From: Longimicrobiales bacterium
GTDB lineage: Bacteria > Gemmatimonadota > Gemmatimonadetes > Longimicrobiales > Gaopeijiaceae
DNA: 35,115 bases
Assembly (NCBI GenBank): GCA_029245345.1
Contig: JAQWPM010000028.1
Location: 1-35,115 of the forward strand
Reading direction: 5' to 3'
Part shown: positions 15,055-23,971 of the stretch, piece by piece
Layout: every line of letters starts with the position of its first letter
How positions within the stretch are numbered: position 1 is the first letter of the stretch
Made by a program: the position numbers and the translations under genes
Notes under the pieces: model-generated
What the model was told of the DNA's origin: nothing
The model's database searches: none
The model's input: only the letters and a program-made list of their open reading frames with translations

Positions 15055-17406
15055 ATGGACGAGACCAAGGGCGCGAGCCCAAACACCGACTTTATCCGCC
15101 AGATTGTGGCGTCCGACCTCGAGAAGGGGCGTTATGACGAAGTCGTCACGCGTTTCCCGCCCGAGCCGAACGGCTACCTGCATCTGGGTCATGTGAAAGC
15201 GATCTGCGTGAGCTTCGGGATCGCCGAGGACTTCGGCGGCCGATGCCACCTTCGCTACGACGACACGAACCCGGAGAAAGAGAGTGAGGAGTTCGCGCTC
15301 TCGATGCAGGAAGACATCCGCTGGCTGGGCTTCGACTGGGGGGAGCACCTCTACTACGGCTCGGACTACTTCGAACAGATGTATGACTTCGCGGTGGTGC
15401 TCATCAACAAAGGGCTCGCATACGTCGATTCCCAGGACGCCGAGGAGATCCGAGAGCACCGTGGGACCGTGACCGAGGCTGGCGTGCACAGCCCGTTCAG
15501 AGATCGTTCGGTCGAGGACAATCTCGATCTCTTCGGCCGAATGCGTGCAGGGGAGTTCGGGGATGGGGCCCATGTCCTGCGCGCCAAAATCGACATGGGC
15601 TCGTCCAACATGATCATGCGTGACCCGATCCTTTATAGGATCCGGCACGCGCATCATTTCAGGCAGGGCGACGATTGGTGCATCTACCCGCTGTACGACT
15701 ATGCTCACTGCTTGGAAGACGCCATCGAGGGAGTGACCCACTCTCTTTGCACTATGGAGTTCGAACTCAACAGGACTCTGTATGACTGGGTGCTCGAGAA
15801 TGTCGGGTTCGAAGAGCCCCGTCCGCACCAGTATGAGTTCGCCCCTCTCGTGGTCGAACATGCGGTGCTGTCCAAGCGGCAGATCGCTCCATTAGTCAAC
15901 GATGGGGTCGTAAGCGGTTGGGACGATCCCCGACTGTCTACGTTGCGGGGGTTCAGACGTCGCGGAGTGCCGCCTGAAGCCATGCGCAACTTCGTGAACA
16001 TGGTTGGCATTGCGCGGACCGAGTCGACCATCGACGTCGCGAAGTTCGACTTCTCCGTGCGGGAGGTCCTTAACCAGACGTCTCCGCGTGTGATGGCGGT
16101 CCTAGATCCACTGAAGATTGTCCTCACGAATTACGCCTCGGGCGAAGTCGAGTGGCTCGACGCTCCGTACTTCCCGCACGATATACCGCTCGAGGGTACC
16201 CGCCAGGTGCCTTTCACACGTGAACTCTACATTGAGCGTTCCGACTTCTCCGAGGATCCGCCGAAGGGTTATCGGCGACTCATCCCGGGTGCGGAAGTAC
16301 GCCTCCGGTACGGATATGTGGTGCGCTGCGACGAGGTCGTCCGAGATGACGACGGCCGGGTGAGCGAGCTGCACTGTAGTTACGACCCGGAGACGCGTGG
16401 CGGAAACACACCCGATGGGCGAAAGGTGAAGGGAACGATCCAATGGGTCTCCGCGTCCGAGGGTCTGGAGGCTGAAGTCAGATTGTACGATCGCCTCTTT
16501 CTGGACGCCGACGAGGTAGAAGGTGGAGACGACGAGCCGGATCTTCTCGCGCTCGTGAATCCGGCTTCGCTCACCAGGGTCGAAGGTGCCTGGATCGAGC
16601 CGTCTGTTGTGAACGACGACCGAGATGTTCGCTACCAGTTCGAGCGGACGGGGTACTTCTGGCGCGACCCTGTCGACGGCGCCGGGGATGCGCTCGTGTT
16701 CAATAGAATCGTGACGCTGAAGGACACGTGGAGCAGGAAGTCCGCGGAGAAACTTCAGGGTCAGCCTGTTGAGCCCAAGAGACCCAAGAAGGTAGCCAGC
16801 CAAGGGACGGCGCCGGGGGATCGGCCCGTCGTAAGCGAGGGGCGCTCTGAGGCTCGTGATGCGGATCCGGAACTGGCTGCTCGCTTCGAACGGTATCAGA
16901 GTGCAATGGGCCTCAGCGTCGAGCATGCGGACCTGCTGACACGGTTGCTGACTACGTCTGATTTTTTCGAGGCGGCGGTCAGTGTTCAGGCCTCGCCGGT
17001 GGACCTCGCGGCCTGGATGGCGACCGATCTCCGTGGCCTTCTAGGAGACCGAAGCCTTACGGACCTGACGTTTGGTGGGGAGGGGCTCGGCGCCCTAGTG
17101 GCGCTCGTGGAGTCCGGGCGTCTGACCCGGCGCGCCGCGAAGGACGTACTCGCTCGAATGGTCTTGGACGGGGGTGACCCCGAGTCGCTCATGACCGAGA
17201 TGGGCCTTGAAGTCATGGGCGTTGGCGACGCATTGGGTGCCGCCGTCGACGAAGTCCTCGGCCGGTGGCCGGACAAGGTCGACGCGTATCGCGCGGGCAA
17301 CAAGAATTTGCTTGGGATGTTCGTTGGGCAGGTGATGAAGGCTACCGGTGGTGCCGCGGACCCGCATGCGGTCCGATCATTCCTATCTGAGAGGCTGGAC
17401 AGCTGA
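15055..17406 (+). CDS. glnS: Glutaminyl-tRNA synthetase with C-terminal YqeY/GatB-type tail
   Basis: This enzyme charges tRNA-Gln directly. The class I catalytic core shows PPEPNGYLHLGH (HIGH equivalent at 43-46), RYDDTNPEKE and the KMSKS equivalent VLSKR (271-275). Two anticodon-binding barrels follow, up to about 560. After a charged linker rich in Lys/Arg/Pro, a helical domain of about 180 residues resembles YqeY and the GatB C-terminal tail (for example ARFERYQSAMGLS, SGRLTRRAAKDVLARMV and NKNLLGMFVGQVMKATGG). Deinococcus GlnRS is a known case of this fusion; the extra domain aids tRNA binding. Total length is 783, against about 550 for E. coli. I chose ATG 15055; the in-frame GTG 15037 adds six residues and also lacks a ribosome site. 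The last base of its stop codon is the first base of the gltX start. Confidence 0.95.
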   Translation: MDETKGASPNTDFIRQIVASDLEKGRYDEVVTRFPPEPNGYLHLGHVKAICVSFGIAEDFGGRCHLRYDDTNPEKESEEFALSMQEDIRWLGFDWGEHLYYGSDYFEQMYDFAVVLINKGLAYVDSQDAEEIREHRGTVTEAGVHSPFRDRSVEDNLDLFGRMRAGEFGDGAHVLRAKIDMGSSNMIMRDPILYRIRHAHHFRQGDDWCIYPLYDYAHCLEDAIEGVTHSLCTMEFELNRTLYDWVLENVGFEEPRPHQYEFAPLVVEHAVLSKRQIAPLVNDGVVSGWDDPRLSTLRGFRRRGVPPEAMRNFVNMVGIARTESTIDVAKFDFSVREVLNQTSPRVMAVLDPLKIVLTNYASGEVEWLDAPYFPHDIPLEGTRQVPFTRELYIERSDFSEDPPKGYRRLIPGAEVRLRYGYVVRCDEVVRDDDGRVSELHCSYDPETRGGNTPDGRKVKGTIQWVSASEGLEAEVRLYDRLFLDADEVEGGDDEPDLLALVNPASLTRVEGAWIEPSVVNDDRDVRYQFERTGYFWRDPVDGAGDALVFNRIVTLKDTWSRKSAEKLQGQPVEPKRPKKVASQGTAPGDRPVVSEGRSEARDADPELAARFERYQSAMGLSVEHADLLTRLLTTSDFFEAAVSVQASPVDLAAWMATDLRGLLGDRSLTDLTFGGEGLGALVALVESGRLTRRAAKDVLARMVLDGGDPESLMTEMGLEVMGVGDALGAAVDEVLGRWPDKVDAYRAGNKNLLGMFVGQVMKATGGAADPHAVRSFLSERLDS

Positions 17407-18851
17407 TGACCCGGGTTCGTTTTGCTCCGTCCCCGACGGGGTACCTCCATGTGGGCGGCGCGCGCACTGCGATCTTCAATTGGCTCCTGGCGCGCAAGGA
17501 AGGTGGTGTGTTTGTGCTCCGGATCGAGGATACCGACCGCGAGCGCTCTAAGGACGAACACACCCAGCGGATCCTGGATGGACTGGGCTGGCTGGGCATC
17601 GATTGGGACGAAGGTCCGTTGTTTCAAAGTGAAGGAGCGGACCGTCACCGGGCAGATGCGCTGCGGTTGTTGGAAGAGGGGAAGGCCTACCGGGACTTCT
17701 CAGATCCTGCGGCGGTGCGAGCCGAGGCAGAGGTGCGAAAGTGGCACCCCAGTCGGGTCGCTCGAGAATACGCCTTCGAGATGAGCGCAGATCAGGTAGC
17801 GGCGAAGATCGACGCAGGTGACTCCTTCGCAATTCGATTCCTCGTGCCTGACGGAGAGACGCTCTTCACGGACATGGTCCACGGCGAGATGCGCTTCGGT
17901 AACGAGGACATCGACGACCTCGTGATCCTGCGAGCAGACGGTACCCCTGTGTACAACATGGCAGTGGTGTCCGACGATGCGGACGCGGAGATCACGCATG
18001 TCATTCGTGGCGACGACCACCTCTCGAATACACCCAAACAGGTACTCCTTTGCCGCGCGTTGGGGTTGCCCGAGCCTGCCTTCGGTCATGTCCCAATGAT
18101 CCTAGGATCGGATGGGAAGCGACTTTCGAAGCGGCACGGAGCGACAGCCGTGGGGGACTATGCCGCAGAGGGCGTCCTCCCCGAGGCGATGCTCAACTTC
18201 CTCACCCTCCTAGGATGGAGTCCGGGGGACGATCGGGAGTTCATGGATCGAGCGGAACTCGTCGAGGCGTTCACTATGGAACGCGTGCTCAAAGCGAGCT
18301 CCGTCTTCGACCAGGACAAGCTCGCTTGGATGAACGGGCGTCACCTTGCGGCCAAGCCGGCGGCGGAGTTGGTGGCTGCGGTGCGCGAGAAACTGGAAGA
18401 GCAGGGCGACTTGGATTCCTCTCGCCTGGCCGACAGCGATTGGATGGCCGGCGCGGTCGAGGTGCACATCACTCGGTCTCGCACCGTGGACGATCTGGCG
18501 TCCCAACTCACGCCCTTTGTGGTCACCTCACTCGACTTCGACGAGAAAGCCGTCGTGAAACATTGGGAGAAGGACCCGTCTGCGGCTTTGCAGCGATTGC
18601 AGGCTGTCTTGGACCTGCTCGAGTCCGTCGATTGGGAACATCAGGCGCTCGACGACGGCCTCAGGGGATTGGCGGAGAGCCTTGGAGTTGGCTTAGGAAA
18701 GGTGATTCATCCGCTCCGAGTGGCGGTGACTGGCCGCATGTCCAGTGCCGGTATTTTCGACGTCTTGATGCTTCTGGGGCGAGATCGCGCACTGTCTCGC
18801 GTACGTGCTGGAATCGAGTCGGTGATGGCTTTGAAGAAAAAGGTTTCTTGA
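17406..18851 (+). CDS. gltX: Glutamyl-tRNA synthetase
   Basis: The 481-residue class I synthetase opens VRFAPSPTGYLHVGGARTA (HIGH equivalent HVGG at 15-18), followed by RIEDTDRERS. It carries KRLSKRHG, the KMSKS loop, at 238-245. The helical anticodon-binding domain fills the C-terminal third. Zinc-binding cysteines seen in E. coli GluRS are absent here (AYRDFSDP replaces the usual Cys-containing stretch), as in several other bacteria. Because a GlnRS is present, this enzyme may be discriminating, with no need for the GatCAB transamidation route; residues deciding that were not checked. The start overlaps the glnS stop by one base (TGATG), so the two synthetases are coupled. The lexA promoter overlaps its stop codon. 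Confidence 0.96.
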   Translation: MTRVRFAPSPTGYLHVGGARTAIFNWLLARKEGGVFVLRIEDTDRERSKDEHTQRILDGLGWLGIDWDEGPLFQSEGADRHRADALRLLEEGKAYRDFSDPAAVRAEAEVRKWHPSRVAREYAFEMSADQVAAKIDAGDSFAIRFLVPDGETLFTDMVHGEMRFGNEDIDDLVILRADGTPVYNMAVVSDDADAEITHVIRGDDHLSNTPKQVLLCRALGLPEPAFGHVPMILGSDGKRLSKRHGATAVGDYAAEGVLPEAMLNFLTLLGWSPGDDREFMDRAELVEAFTMERVLKASSVFDQDKLAWMNGRHLAAKPAAELVAAVREKLEEQGDLDSSRLADSDWMAGAVEVHITRSRTVDDLASQLTPFVVTSLDFDEKAVVKHWEKDPSAALQRLQAVLDLLESVDWEHQALDDGLRGLAESLGVGLGKVIHPLRVAVTGRMSSAGIFDVLMLLGRDRALSRVRAGIESVMALKKKVS

Positions 18852-18877
18852 CACTGTTCCGACGCGCACATTAGGAT
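18848..18877 (+). promoter_or_regulatory. Sigma-70 promoter of lexA
   Basis: A perfect -35 TTGACA overlaps the gltX stop codon and is followed after 18 bases by TAGGAT. The predicted start is near 18884, which leaves a leader of about 45 bases. This is the strongest vegetative promoter match in the window. Confidence 0.65.
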
Positions 18878-18928: not shown

Positions 18929-19630
18929 TTGGCCCGTTCTAACACAACGACGGAGCACCAAACTCCGACCACGGGTCGGAGGGTCGAGCCGCTCAATGAG
19001 ATTGAGGAGAAGATCCTCGATTTCATGGTTCAGTACCTGCGCGCGAACACGTATCAGCCTTCGATCCGCGAGATCGGGGAGCGGTTTGGTATCAAGAGCA
19101 CCAAGACTGTCTCCGAGCAGCTGCAGGCGCTCGCGGACAAGGGTTTCCTAGAACGAGATCCGTCGCGGTCACGCGGCGTGAAGATCTTGGACGTGGACTT
19201 GAGTGATCAGACCGTGTCGGTGCCCTGCCTTGACGCGCTTCCTGAGACCTCCGGTGCTGTTCCTTCTGAAGACGCCGAGGTGCACCTCTCCATCGATCGT
19301 CGAATGGGCGTTGAGGAGGGCTGCTTCATGGTGAAGGCCGGAGCCAGCGACTTGGCCGTACTCGGAATCACCGAAGGTGATTTCGTCATCGTGTCGCCTG
19401 CCGACATCGAGTCGATTGACGACGGGGCCATCGTAGTTGCGAAGGTTGGCACGGCATCCGCCTATCATCGGTTCACGCGGAACGGAAAAGGTGTCTGCCT
19501 CGAGTCGCTCAAGCCGGGTGGTGAGCAGACTCTCGTGGAGGACGCTGCAGACGTCGGACTCATTGGACGCGTAACTGCGTCCTATCGCCGCATGGATGAA
19601 GCTTCCGCGGTCAATCTGACCCAGCACTAA
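18929..19630 (+). CDS. lexA: LexA-family repressor with degenerate self-cleavage domain
   Basis: LexA represses DNA-damage genes and is normally inactivated by RecA-stimulated self-cleavage. The N-terminal winged helix is well preserved (about 21-86: NEIEEKILDFMVQYL, QPSIREIGERFGIKS, LADKGFLERD, RSRGVKI). The C-terminal S24-like fold is recognisable (VPCLDALPE, FMVKAG, GDFVIV, DGAIVVAKV). Against E. coli LexA, the Ala84-Gly85 scissile pair aligns with Glu106-Thr107. The nucleophile Ser119 aligns with Ser140, within a one-residue insertion. The base Lys156 aligns with His180 (AYHRF for VKRL). The protein is therefore probably uncleavable. The TTG start has AGGA seven bases upstream, and no other in-frame start precedes the helix. 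tadA begins 11 bases after the stop. The family call is firm; loss of cleavage is inferred from a hand alignment. Confidence 0.88.
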   Translation: MARSNTTTEHQTPTTGRRVEPLNEIEEKILDFMVQYLRANTYQPSIREIGERFGIKSTKTVSEQLQALADKGFLERDPSRSRGVKILDVDLSDQTVSVPCLDALPETSGAVPSEDAEVHLSIDRRMGVEEGCFMVKAGASDLAVLGITEGDFVIVSPADIESIDDGAIVVAKVGTASAYHRFTRNGKGVCLESLKPGGEQTLVEDAADVGLIGRVTASYRRMDEASAVNLTQH

Positions 19631-19641
19631 GCCATAGCTGC

Positions 19642-20148
19642 ATGATGGCTGCAGGGCCGTCGAGTCCCGAATCTTCCTTGGAGCCTGGTTCCGTGGATCC
19701 CGTCGACGAACTTTGGATGAGGCGTGCTCTTGAACTCGCCGAAGTCGCGGCCGACCAGGGTGAGGTCCCAGTCGGAGCGGTGCTCGTCCGCGATGGGGAG
19801 ATGGTGGCTGAGGGGCACAATCTCACTGTGACCACATCCGACCCGACGGCCCATGCGGAAGTGGTGGTCCTCCGTGCGGCCGCGCGCGAGCAGGGCGATT
19901 GGAGGCTCCTCGAGACCACCTTGTACGTGTCGCTCGAGCCCTGTTCGATGTGTGCGGGTGCGATCGTTCTGGCTCGTGTGCCCCGGGTCGTATATGCGGC
20001 TGCGGATCCGAAGGCGGGTATGGCTGGGTCGCTGGGCAACCTTCTTCAAGATCCGCGCCTCAACCACCGGTGTGAGTTGAAGACTGGCGTCTTGGCACAG
20101 GAAGCCGGAGATCTCCTTCGAAACTTCTTTCGAGAGCGCCGCAAATGA
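19642..20148 (+). CDS. tadA: tRNA-specific adenosine deaminase
   Basis: TadA converts A34 to inosine in tRNA-Arg(ACG) so that it can read CGU, CGC and CGA codons. The 168-residue product has the cytidine-deaminase-fold motifs: HAE at 71-73 (zinc His and catalytic Glu) and PCSMC at 100-104 (zinc Cys101 and Cys104). GEVPVGAVLV precedes them and DPKAGMAGSLGNLLQDPRLNH follows, as usual for TadA. An N-terminal extension of about 20 residues, rich in Ser and Pro, precedes the conserved DELWMRRALELA. Two adjacent ATGs (19642, 19645) are possible, with no clear ribosome site; the lexA stop is 11 bases upstream. Its own stop overlaps the next start as ATGA. Confidence 0.95.
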   Translation: MMAAGPSSPESSLEPGSVDPVDELWMRRALELAEVAADQGEVPVGAVLVRDGEMVAEGHNLTVTTSDPTAHAEVVVLRAAAREQGDWRLLETTLYVSLEPCSMCAGAIVLARVPRVVYAAADPKAGMAGSLGNLLQDPRLNHRCELKTGVLAQEAGDLLRNFFRERRK

Positions 20149-21488
20149 GGGCGACCCGGGCGATTCCGCTCGCTCTCTTCGTGGCCGGTTGTGCTGTGGT
20201 GGCGTCTCCCAGACCCTCGTCTCCCAGACCCTCGTCGCCACCGTCCGAGCCCGTTACCGATTTACCCACGCGCCAGGTAACGCCGATCTCAGGCCCGGAG
20301 GTGCCGACAGGGCAGCCGGCCCGGCCGTTCGAAGAGGTTAGAGCGCTGTGGGTTGTCCGTTCTACGATGACGAGCGCAGCCGAAGTGACTGCGATGGTAG
20401 AGCAGGCGGATCAGGCGGGTTTTAATACCGTCCTGGTCCAGGTCCGCGGACGGGCGGACGCCTTCTATTCGTCTAGCTGGGAGCCGCGAGGAGAGACCAT
20501 CACTGAAGCGGATGGGTTCGACCCGTTGGCCCTCACGATCGATCTGGCTCATGCGCGCGGAATAGCGGTTCACGCTTGGGTGAATACACATTTGGTGTGG
20601 GGAGGTGCGGGCCCCGCCCCGCGGGATTCGCGCCACATCGTGCGCGCCCATCCCGAGTGGTTGGCGGTACCGAGGGCGCTCTCAGTAGAGCTGTTCGACG
20701 TCAGCCCCTGGGACCCCATCTTCGTCGAGAGACTCCGGAAGTACGCGGCGGACAACTCCGGTACGGTGGAGGGCGTTTATACCAGCCCGTCGGACGCACG
20801 GGTGAAGGAACGCGTGCGGTCGGTCTGGCTGGACTTGGCTTCTCGGTACGACCTGGATGGCATCCACTTTGACTACATCCGGTTTCCGTCTGGGGACTTC
20901 GACTACTCGCGTGGCGCCCTGGAACGTTTCCGCCGTTGGGTTACTCCCCGGTTGTCACCGGGACTCCGCGCTGAGCTGGCCGCAGCGCACGCAGGAGACC
21001 CTCTAGCTTACGTGGACGCGCTTTCCGAGCCCTGGGCCGAGTTCCGCCGCAAGCACGTTACAGAGCTTGTACGTTGGGTCTACCACGGAATCAAAGCGCG
21101 ACGACCGGAGTTGGTGGTTTCAGCGGCTGTGTTCTCGAACCAGGAAGACGCCTTCCGTAACCGATATCAGGATTGGCCCGCTTGGCTTGAGGAGGGGATT
21201 CTCGATGTCGCGGTGCCAATGGCGTACACGACGGACGATGATCGCTTTAGAGCCCAGATCCGCGAGGGAGTCGCCGTGGCTGGAAAGGGCCGACTTTGGG
21301 CAGGTGTGGGAGCATATCTGAATTCCCATGCGGGTACGCTCACCAAGATCGACATCGCTCGGGAAGAGGCGACCGCCGGTGTGGTGCTCTTCTCGTACGA
21401 CTGGGCCGTGGGTGATGGATATGACGGGCAGGGGCCCACGCTGTTGGAAGTCGTGGGGCGCACCAAGTTCGGAGGAGGCAGACCGTGA
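20145..21488 (+). CDS. Lipoprotein, family 10-like glycoside hydrolase (GHL10/YngK type)
   Basis: The 447-residue protein starts with a lipoprotein signal: MRATRAIPLALFVAGC, with the lipobox cysteine at 16. A Pro/Ser-rich tether contains a duplicated SPRPS. The catalytic-type barrel follows: EVRALWVVRSTMTS, GFNTVLVQVRGRADAFYSS, DPLALTIDLAHARGIAVHAWVN, YDLDGIHFDYIRFP and ILDVAVPMAYTTDD. These are hallmarks of the family of putative glycosyl hydrolases (formerly DUF187) whose substrates are mostly cell-wall or extracellular glycans. Location would be membrane-anchored, facing the periplasm or surface. It is coupled to tadA by an ATGA overlap, and its stop overlaps the next gene as GTGA. The enzymatic activity is not established from sequence. 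Confidence 0.87.
   Translation: MRATRAIPLALFVAGCAVVASPRPSSPRPSSPPSEPVTDLPTRQVTPISGPEVPTGQPARPFEEVRALWVVRSTMTSAAEVTAMVEQADQAGFNTVLVQVRGRADAFYSSSWEPRGETITEADGFDPLALTIDLAHARGIAVHAWVNTHLVWGGAGPAPRDSRHIVRAHPEWLAVPRALSVELFDVSPWDPIFVERLRKYAADNSGTVEGVYTSPSDARVKERVRSVWLDLASRYDLDGIHFDYIRFPSGDFDYSRGALERFRRWVTPRLSPGLRAELAAAHAGDPLAYVDALSEPWAEFRRKHVTELVRWVYHGIKARRPELVVSAAVFSNQEDAFRNRYQDWPAWLEEGILDVAVPMAYTTDDDRFRAQIREGVAVAGKGRLWAGVGAYLNSHAGTLTKIDIAREEATAGVVLFSYDWAVGDGYDGQGPTLLEVVGRTKFGGGRP
20204..20233 (+). repeat. 15-bp tandem duplication in the lipoprotein tether
   Basis: The unit GTCTCCCAGACCCTC occurs twice, head to tail, and encodes a duplicated five-residue Ser/Pro/Arg unit just after the lipobox. 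Being a multiple of three, it changes tether length without shifting the frame. Confidence 0.7.
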
Positions 21489-21889
21489 ATCCTAAGATCC
21501 TTTTTCCACTAGCTGCCGCCATCTACGGAGTTACGGGGGTGGGTCTTCTTTTCGTGCCTCTGGAACTCGGGCCCTTCTTGGGTCTCTCCTCCCTAGCCGC
21601 GAACGAGGTCCCGCTGCAAATGGCCTCGGCGGGGTTGATCGGTTTCGCCGCTCTGAACTGGATGGGCCGGGGTGCCATATACGGCGGCATCTACGGTCGA
21701 CCGATTGCCGTGGCGAATTTCGGATTCGGGGCCGTCCTCGCGCCCACGCTCATACAGTACCAGATGAGCGGACAGGGCCAGCCCTTGGGGTGGGCGCTCA
21801 GCGTGCTCCTAACGGGGCTGTGGGTGGCGTACGGTGCCTTGCTTTGGTCGAAGCCATGGTTTCCAAAGGAGACCGCCGGCGAGTCCTAG
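21485..21889 (+). CDS. Small four-helix membrane protein, unknown function
   Basis: The 134-residue product is almost entirely hydrophobic. It has likely helices at about 5-27, 42-60, 72-90 and 103-122, a polar QYQMSGQGQ loop before the last helix, and a short hydrophilic C-terminus. Gly-rich stretches (MGRGAIYGGIYG) lie between helices 2 and 3. I do not recognise the family. The GTG start overlaps the lipoprotein stop, so it is coupled to that gene and may act with it at the inner membrane. Its stop codon overlaps the stop of the convergent antiporter gene by two bases. Confidence 0.75.
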   Translation: MNPKILFPLAAAIYGVTGVGLLFVPLELGPFLGLSSLAANEVPLQMASAGLIGFAALNWMGRGAIYGGIYGRPIAVANFGFGAVLAPTLIQYQMSGQGQPLGWALSVLLTGLWVAYGALLWSKPWFPKETAGES

Positions 21890-23796
21890 GACTCCCGTGA
21901 CACGCGCTCGCCCTTGAAGTGCAGCAAGGCGAAGAGGACAGAAACGCCGAGCAGTAGTGCCGCCCAAGCCGGGAGTCCGTATGCGGTTCCGATGTTGCCC
22001 AACAGCATCCCCACCATGGCCACAATGAGCGCGTAGGGCATTTGCGTCCGCACATGGTCCATGTGGTCACAGGCCGACGCTGTAGAGGAAAGGACGGTTG
22101 TGTCGGAGATCGGCGAGCAGTGATCCCCGAAGATCGCCCCGGCGAGTACCGATGCAGTGGCGCCCAACAGAATGGCCACTTCCGGCCCCCCCGGAAGCAC
22201 TGCCGCCCCACCAAGAGCGATCGTCAGTGGGACAACCAACGGCACCATGATGGCCATGGTCCCCCAGGAAGTGCCGGTGGCGAAAGCCATTGCCGCGGAC
22301 GTGATGAACACGATCACAGGGATGAGTTGGAGAGCGACCCGGTCCGAGAGCAATTGTGAGAGGAACTGTGCTGTGCCGACCTCTTCCGTAGCGGCACCGA
22401 GGGACCAGGCGAGCGTCAAGATGACCATGGCGATCATCATGGCCTTCATCCCGCCGAGCCAGGAGTCGAGGGACTCCTGCATGGTGAGGAGGCCCTGTCC
22501 TACGGACATCGCGATCGCGACCAGGCAGCCTGCGAGCGAGCCCCAAAGGAGCGTGGCGAAGGGATCTGCCGCGCCGAACACGTCCATGAGGTTGGCGTCG
22601 GGCCCCTCGCTGGCTCGCCCATCGGTATAAAGGCCGACCAAGACCACGAGGATTACGGTTAGGACGGGGACCGCTGCATTCCACCATCTATGCTCAACGT
22701 TCTCCTTCGCATCCATCAGATGGGACGAAGTGTCCGTGGCAAGGGTCGCACCCTCTCGATACAGACCTTTCCCCGCAGCGGCGCGTTTCTCTGCTGCGGC
22801 CATGGGGCCGAAGTCCTTGTCCATCGCCGACGTCATGATGACGAAGGTCACCGCAAGAAGTGGGTAGAAGAGGAAGGGGATCGTCTGCAAGAAGATCGCA
22901 AACGGATTGGCAGCGAGGAGTATTTCAGCGTTGGCCGGGTTTTGCTCCGCCGCGATGCGGAGGCCGTCGCCGATCAGTGTGATCTCGTATCCGACCCAAG
23001 TGGAGATCGGGACGAGGGCCGCAACCGGGGCCGCTGTGGAATCGACAATGTAGGCCAACTTTTCACGAGAGATCTTCAGGCGGTCCGTGATCGGCCGCAT
23101 CGTATTCCCGACAATGAGCGTGTTGGCGTAGTCGTCGAAGAAGATCGCCATGCCAGCCGCCCATGTGGCGAGTTTTCCGCGCCGACTCGTGTTGGCGAAT
23201 GGGGTCACTGCCTCGACAATGCCCATAGTCCCCCCATTCCTGGCAATGATGCCGACCATGCCGCCAAGTAATAGCGAGAATACGGCGATCGACATGTGGG
23301 CGGAGTCCGCCAACGCTGGGACAACGAACGTGTCGATCAGCCGCCAGGTCGCAGTGATTGGGTTGAACCCCGCGACGGCGAGCGCAGCAAACCAGACCCC
23401 TGCGAAGAGCGCTGTGATGACCTCGCGGAAGAGTAGAGCCAGCACGATCGCGATGATCGGGGGCATAAGAGAGTACCAAGGAGACGTCACCGTCGCCGGC
23501 ATCTCGTGGGTTGTATCCCCGATCATCACGGTGAGGGGCAGGTCGGCTTTGGATGTGACGAGGAGATCATCAACGACGATCGAGCCGTAGGCGGGTACCG
23601 CCCCCACGGACATCACTGCGCCCGCAGCATTACGGATTTCGTAGGCCACGGCTCCCGTTCCGGGGCCAGCAAGCAGCGTCATCTGAAAGGGGATCCCCTT
23701 CAATAGCACCGTGGGCGGTTCCGAGATCTCCTGCGCTCCCGATGCGAGCGGCAAGAAAAGGAGGCTGAGCAGAACGGCTGGCAGCGTGCGACGCAT
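21886..23796 (-). CDS. nhaC: NhaC-family Na+/H+ antiporter with N-terminal extracytoplasmic domain
   Basis: The 636-residue protein carries the NhaC signatures MAIFFDDYANTLIVGNTMRP (Asp221-Asp222), VAALVPISTWVGYE and GDHCSPISDTTVLSS. About eleven transmembrane segments run from residue 108 onward. NhaC proteins exchange Na+ for H+, although related transporters move amino acids or malate/lactate, so the substrate is inferred. Unusually, a cleavable-looking signal peptide (MRRTLPAVLLSLLFLPLASGAQ) precedes about 80 beta-rich residues before the first helix (SLMPPIIAIVLALLF), which would sit in the periplasm. ATG 23796 is preferred; the frame extends to a TTG at 23808. No ribosome site is clear. 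It is divergent from pyrR across a 175-base gap. Confidence 0.88.
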   Translation of the reverse strand: MRRTLPAVLLSLLFLPLASGAQEISEPPTVLLKGIPFQMTLLAGPGTGAVAYEIRNAAGAVMSVGAVPAYGSIVVDDLLVTSKADLPLTVMIGDTTHEMPATVTSPWYSLMPPIIAIVLALLFREVITALFAGVWFAALAVAGFNPITATWRLIDTFVVPALADSAHMSIAVFSLLLGGMVGIIARNGGTMGIVEAVTPFANTSRRGKLATWAAGMAIFFDDYANTLIVGNTMRPITDRLKISREKLAYIVDSTAAPVAALVPISTWVGYEITLIGDGLRIAAEQNPANAEILLAANPFAIFLQTIPFLFYPLLAVTFVIMTSAMDKDFGPMAAAEKRAAAGKGLYREGATLATDTSSHLMDAKENVEHRWWNAAVPVLTVILVVLVGLYTDGRASEGPDANLMDVFGAADPFATLLWGSLAGCLVAIAMSVGQGLLTMQESLDSWLGGMKAMMIAMVILTLAWSLGAATEEVGTAQFLSQLLSDRVALQLIPVIVFITSAAMAFATGTSWGTMAIMVPLVVPLTIALGGAAVLPGGPEVAILLGATASVLAGAIFGDHCSPISDTTVLSSTASACDHMDHVRTQMPYALIVAMVGMLLGNIGTAYGLPAWAALLLGVSVLFALLHFKGERVSRES

Positions 23797-23971
23797 GGGC
23801 AGTGGCAAGGTTAAGGGCTCAGAGGGCCTGCGCGGCCCGAATCAATGGCGGCAATCATGGGGACTGCGACGGGATGATGACAGGGCTTGCTGGATTGTCG
23901 AGTGGGGTCGTTGACCGGGAGGCGTTGAAGGCCGAACTTAGCGCGGCTGACACGCCCCGTACCGACAGGGT

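Follow-up and report, generated by a model that had tools for sequence, protein, structure and literature searches.

The closest precedent for the protein described here is the LexA of Synechocystis sp. PCC 6803, in which Gly-Gly stands in place of the Ala-Gly cleavage pair and Asp in place of Ser119; no cleavage products were seen under salt stress, the protein represses non-SOS genes, and its graded control by modification has been proposed (PMC3091678; PMC7567884). A second LexA is also known from Leptospira interrogans, where LexA2, located in a prophage-like region, is ~28% identical to LexA1 and differs from it in the DNA-binding face; it keeps the Ser, the Lys and a Cys-Gly pair, and is depleted after UV (PMC3789691). 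In Gemmatimonadota, our literature search found no study of LexA, an absence that is not proof. The window of our study (the whole stretch of 35,115 nucleotides that was analysed) comes from a 3.8 Mb, 98% complete Longimicrobiales genome and contains a gene, here called lexA2, that shares with the Synechocystis protein the LexA architecture, the loss of the cleavage pair and the change from Ser to Asp. By sequence, it is thus like the non-cleavable Synechocystis type in having a LexA fold with the cleavage pair and the Ser lost. The two differ in that lexA2 has also lost the Lys and in that the dyad has been lost in several of its lineages; moreover, the Synechocystis protein is described as the LexA of that species, whereas lexA2 is a paralogue that stands beside a canonical LexA. 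The likeness is probably convergent rather than a sign of the same lineage. The Leptospira LexA2 is likewise a second LexA, but it has kept its dyad.

The lexA2 gene was recognized from its open reading frame and profile matches as a LexA paralogue whose S24 domain is dead (18929..19630, + strand; 233 amino acids, TTG start). Profile searches with its product gave matches to LexA_DNA_bind (PF01726, 1.2e-18) and Peptidase_S24 (1.8e-08), as well as a full-length match to the TIGR00498 lexA model, which scored 119.6 bits where the cut-off is 110.95; a distant lexA2 orthologue falls just under this cut-off, with 108.2 bits. The winged-helix DNA-binding domain comprises residues 20-83 (18986..19177, +), and its recognition region, IKSTKTVSE, is nearly invariant. 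The Peptidase_S24-like domain, delimited by profile, alignment and fold and lacking the catalytic dyad, comprises residues 113-215 (19265..19573, +). Two AlphaFold models of the protein (mean pLDDT 78.8 and 82.0) present a winged helix and an S24-type beta domain, and the closest solved structure is the LexA of Thermotoga maritima (3k2z, Z 16.1, 187 residues aligned), with E. coli LexA as the next-best match (Z about 13). The profile and structural matches agree with the initial annotation, which had described a LexA homologue with a conserved winged helix, and the models suggest that the S24 half keeps the LexA fold. It is important to note that annotation pipelines would label this protein as 'transcriptional repressor LexA' and S24 peptidase, which would mislead models of the SOS response in Gemmatimonadota.

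A self-cleaving S24 peptidase is recognized by an Ala-Gly or Cys-Gly scissile pair and a Ser-Lys dyad, and neither is present in the window protein. In the alignment with E. coli LexA, Glu106-Thr107 (19244..19249, +) stands where the E. coli protein has its scissile Ala84-Gly85 bond, and His180 (19466..19468, +) where it has the catalytic Lys156, as the initial annotation had indicated. Its further claim, that Ser140 is kept next to a one-residue insertion, did not hold: the segment FMVKAGASDLAVLGITEGD can be aligned to E. coli FLLRVSGMSMKDIGIMDGD without any gap, so that in the Ser140-Asp141 pair (19346..19351, +) it is Asp141 that occupies the column of the catalytic Ser119, and Ser140 lies one residue ahead of it. 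We consequently rejected Ser140 as a surviving nucleophile, a Ser being found at this position in only three of the 85 orthologues. These sites were placed by sequence alignment, the fold comparison reporting aligned ranges only and not a superposition. The orthologue survey proposed in the initial annotation was carried out with 85 distinct sequences from the family of the window protein (f1), and it revealed the same losses. The scissile-pair column contains Ala-Gly in one sequence and Cys-Gly in none; the Ser119 column holds Asp or Glu in 57/85 and Ser in 1/85; and the Lys156 column holds His, Tyr or Phe in 74/85 and Lys in 0/85. The Ser-Lys dyad is absent from all of them, even when a Ser and a Lys were accepted together at up to two columns from their respective sites. 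The cleavage chemistry has therefore been lost entirely. A divergent member of the family (L032) and its relatives, excluded from the set of 85, are likewise devoid of the dyad, and their C-terminal residue is not His. It could still be argued that proteolysis inactivates lexA2, whether the protein cuts itself in a non-canonical manner or a different protease acts on it in trans, given that the interdomain region is variable and probably exposed and that the action of other proteases is invisible in a sequence; the complete lack of a nearby Ser-Lys pair and the single Ala-Gly among the 85 orthologues make this very improbable.

A second, canonical LexA, for which the initial annotation had suggested searching, is indeed encoded in the same genome (G000:C7:76633-77235). 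It has the same domain order as lexA2 and also matches the LexA profile, but it is only ~29% identical to the window protein, has the Ala-Gly, Ser and Lys intact, as do 20/20 canonical LexAs from relatives, and carries a different recognition region (YSSLATVHE, versus IKSTKTVSE in lexA2) and direct-repeat operators of its own. The repeat TTCGG-N6-TTCGG occurs in all 21 canonical lexA promoters examined in the order (two copies in 20 of them and one copy in the other), and in none of the 110 lexA2 upstream regions. In the window genome, it is found at 25 sites, compared with 10 for the reversed control, and these include positions 20-220 bases upstream of a dnaE2-like error-prone polymerase, nrdJ and a PA0069-type radical-SAM gene. 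The two tandem copies upstream of the canonical lexA lie at G000:C7:76566-76607 (positions 1434-1475 of L002). This direct repeat, which is not a palindrome, is the probable SOS operator of Gemmatimonadota, and its presence in the promoter of the canonical lexA and before the three genes mentioned above makes the canonical LexA the likely SOS repressor of this genome. No such repeat was found upstream of recA, and the regulon is therefore provisional. As the two proteins share a fold and the same cell, lexA2 might be thought to damp the SOS response by modulating its canonical counterpart, for instance through mixed dimers or through competition for SOS promoters. We consider this quite improbable: the identity is low, the recognition regions differ, canonical-type operators are missing from the 110 lexA2 promoters, and a canonical LexA without any lexA2 is found in many families of the class.

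In our sample, lexA2 is present in five of ten families of the class (f1, f2, f3, f7, and f9) and absent from the sampled members of f4, f5, f6, f8, and f10, as well as from those of the other class of the phylum. Within the family of the window, three genomes that are >90% complete (G009, G014, and G017) do not have the gene, which indicates that it is dispensable. The 80 orthologues that were fetched by name come from metagenome-assembled genomes labelled Gemmatimonadetes, Gemmatimonadota, Gemmatimonadales, Longimicrobiales and, in one case, Gammaproteobacteria; this last contig (L102, JAHEKL010000093.1) bears a Gemmatimonadota lexA2-tadA locus and is probably a mislabelled genome or a misbinned contig. 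The dyad is kept in all sampled members of f3 and in several of f7, and it is missing from f1, f2, f9 and other members of f7. The dyad-bearing genes of f3 and f7 are orthologous to the window gene, adjoin gltX, and have a near-identical recognition region, but they retain AAG, a GDSM-type Ser and a VKR/VKT-type Lys. When the four catalytic columns were removed before the tree was built, the intact or lost label still required at least four changes, a count that gives no direction and comes from a quick tree with open forks inside f7. The presence of the dyad in the canonical LexA and in scattered lexA2 genes makes repeated loss the natural interpretation. These results describe lexA2 as an old, gltX-linked LexA paralogue in part of one Gemmatimonadota class, and what is new here is a LexA paralogue lineage with a dead protease, in which the loss recurs and new residues have become invariant.

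The genomic context is also conserved. The gltX gene (17406..18851, +) is the conserved upstream neighbour across the class and marks orthology; it precedes lexA2 at most f1, f2 and f3 loci, and tadA follows directly at nearly every one of these loci with enough flanking sequence. The lexA2 promoter, TTGACA-N18-TAGGAT (18848..18877, +), has a -35 box that overlaps the gltX stop codon and is kept nearly letter for letter over many genera. As its conserved string has a single copy in the genome, it does not represent a motif common to a regulon. No conserved operator-like palindrome was found in this promoter region across the family. One candidate autoregulatory operator, the palindrome GAATYCGGGCGRATTC located 3' of the promoter, was discarded: it is restricted to the nearest relatives, and its near-matches in the genome lie mostly inside reading frames. 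Downstream, in tight order, follow tadA, encoding the tRNA adenosine-34 deaminase (19642..20148, +; NCBIfam 3.4e-57), a GHL10 (glycosyl hydrolase-like 10) protein with a lipoprotein-like N-terminus (20145..21488, +), and a small membrane protein with no family match (21485..21889, +), in accordance with the three neighbours named in the initial annotation. According to the initial annotation, lexA2 'drives' this operon. It is indeed the first gene, but this position does not by itself imply that lexA2 regulates the tadA operon, and no conserved operator was found there. Next to the operon, on the opposite strand, is a Na+/H+ antiporter-family transporter gene (21886-23808, -), related to Tet(35)/NhaC with scores under the family cut-offs; genes of this type often neighbour lexA2-tadA in relatives.

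Among close pairs of sequences, the non-synonymous/synonymous ratio was ~0.03 for the DNA-binding half, compared with ~0.2 for the S24 half; more distant pairs were ignored in this comparison as they were saturated. Both domains are thus under purifying selection, and lexA2 is not decaying. In addition, two residues absent from the canonical LexA are invariant in all 85 orthologues: Cys100, in the first strand of the S24 half (19226..19228, +), and the C-terminal His233 (19625..19627, +). The first is encoded by TGC and TGT and the second by CAC and CAT, followed by three stop codons, a variety that indicates selection on the protein. The tail carrying His233 is predicted to be disordered (pLDDT under 50) in both AlphaFold models, including the second one, made with 59 orthologues, and a role of His233 in a folded site is consequently unsupported by the monomer model. 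The lost catalytic residues and the fast divergence of the S24 half could also suggest a decaying gene copy without function; this reading is largely refuted, and almost certainly wrong, given the open frame, the selection on both halves, the conserved promoter and neighbourhood, and the two new residues that do not vary across many genera.

Because none of the 85 orthologues has the dyad, the genome carries a canonical LexA, the gene is under purifying selection and there is a cyanobacterial precedent, it is well supported, as far as sequences can tell, that the window protein is a LexA homologue unable to cleave itself and not in charge of the SOS response. We consider it probable that it is a non-cleaving, dimeric, non-SOS DNA-binding regulator, either reversibly controlled or constitutive; the constitutive or ligand-responsive role put forward in the initial annotation is plausible. 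Such a regulator would be constitutive from its conserved housekeeping-type promoter, or be adjusted reversibly; it would dimerise through the S24-like domain, bind operators of its own that differ from those of the canonical LexA, and repress (or activate) non-SOS genes, and RecA-induced self-cleavage would not remove it. A purely constitutive regulator, with the S24 domain kept for dimerisation and folding only and without signal input, would be consistent with the recurrent loss of the dyad (at least four changes on the tree), with the strong conservation of one domain and the looser conservation of the other, and with a conserved housekeeping-like promoter in which no autoregulatory site was found; it is nevertheless a possible but rather unlikely explanation, as dimerisation alone is not obviously enough to account for the invariance of Cys100 and His233, which have no known role in canonical LexA. 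If the non-cleaving regulator is reversibly controlled, the site of sensing or contact (redox, a metal or a partner) would, speculatively, most likely involve these two residues. The more specific proposal that the protease domain has repeatedly turned into a reversible sensor within this one class, with Cys100 and His233 as the input in the family of the window and a non-SOS regulon of its own beside the canonical LexA, is doubtful.

The presence of dyad-bearing and dyad-less orthologues in one syntenic position makes the transition from a self-destroying to a permanent or ligand-controlled repressor testable, with independent replicates. Among related genera, the orthologous gltX-linked lexA2 genes of f7 and f9 (L136-L155) range from an intact cleavage site through a half-lost one (ATSK) to complete loss, and this gradation is useful for studying how self-cleavage disappears.
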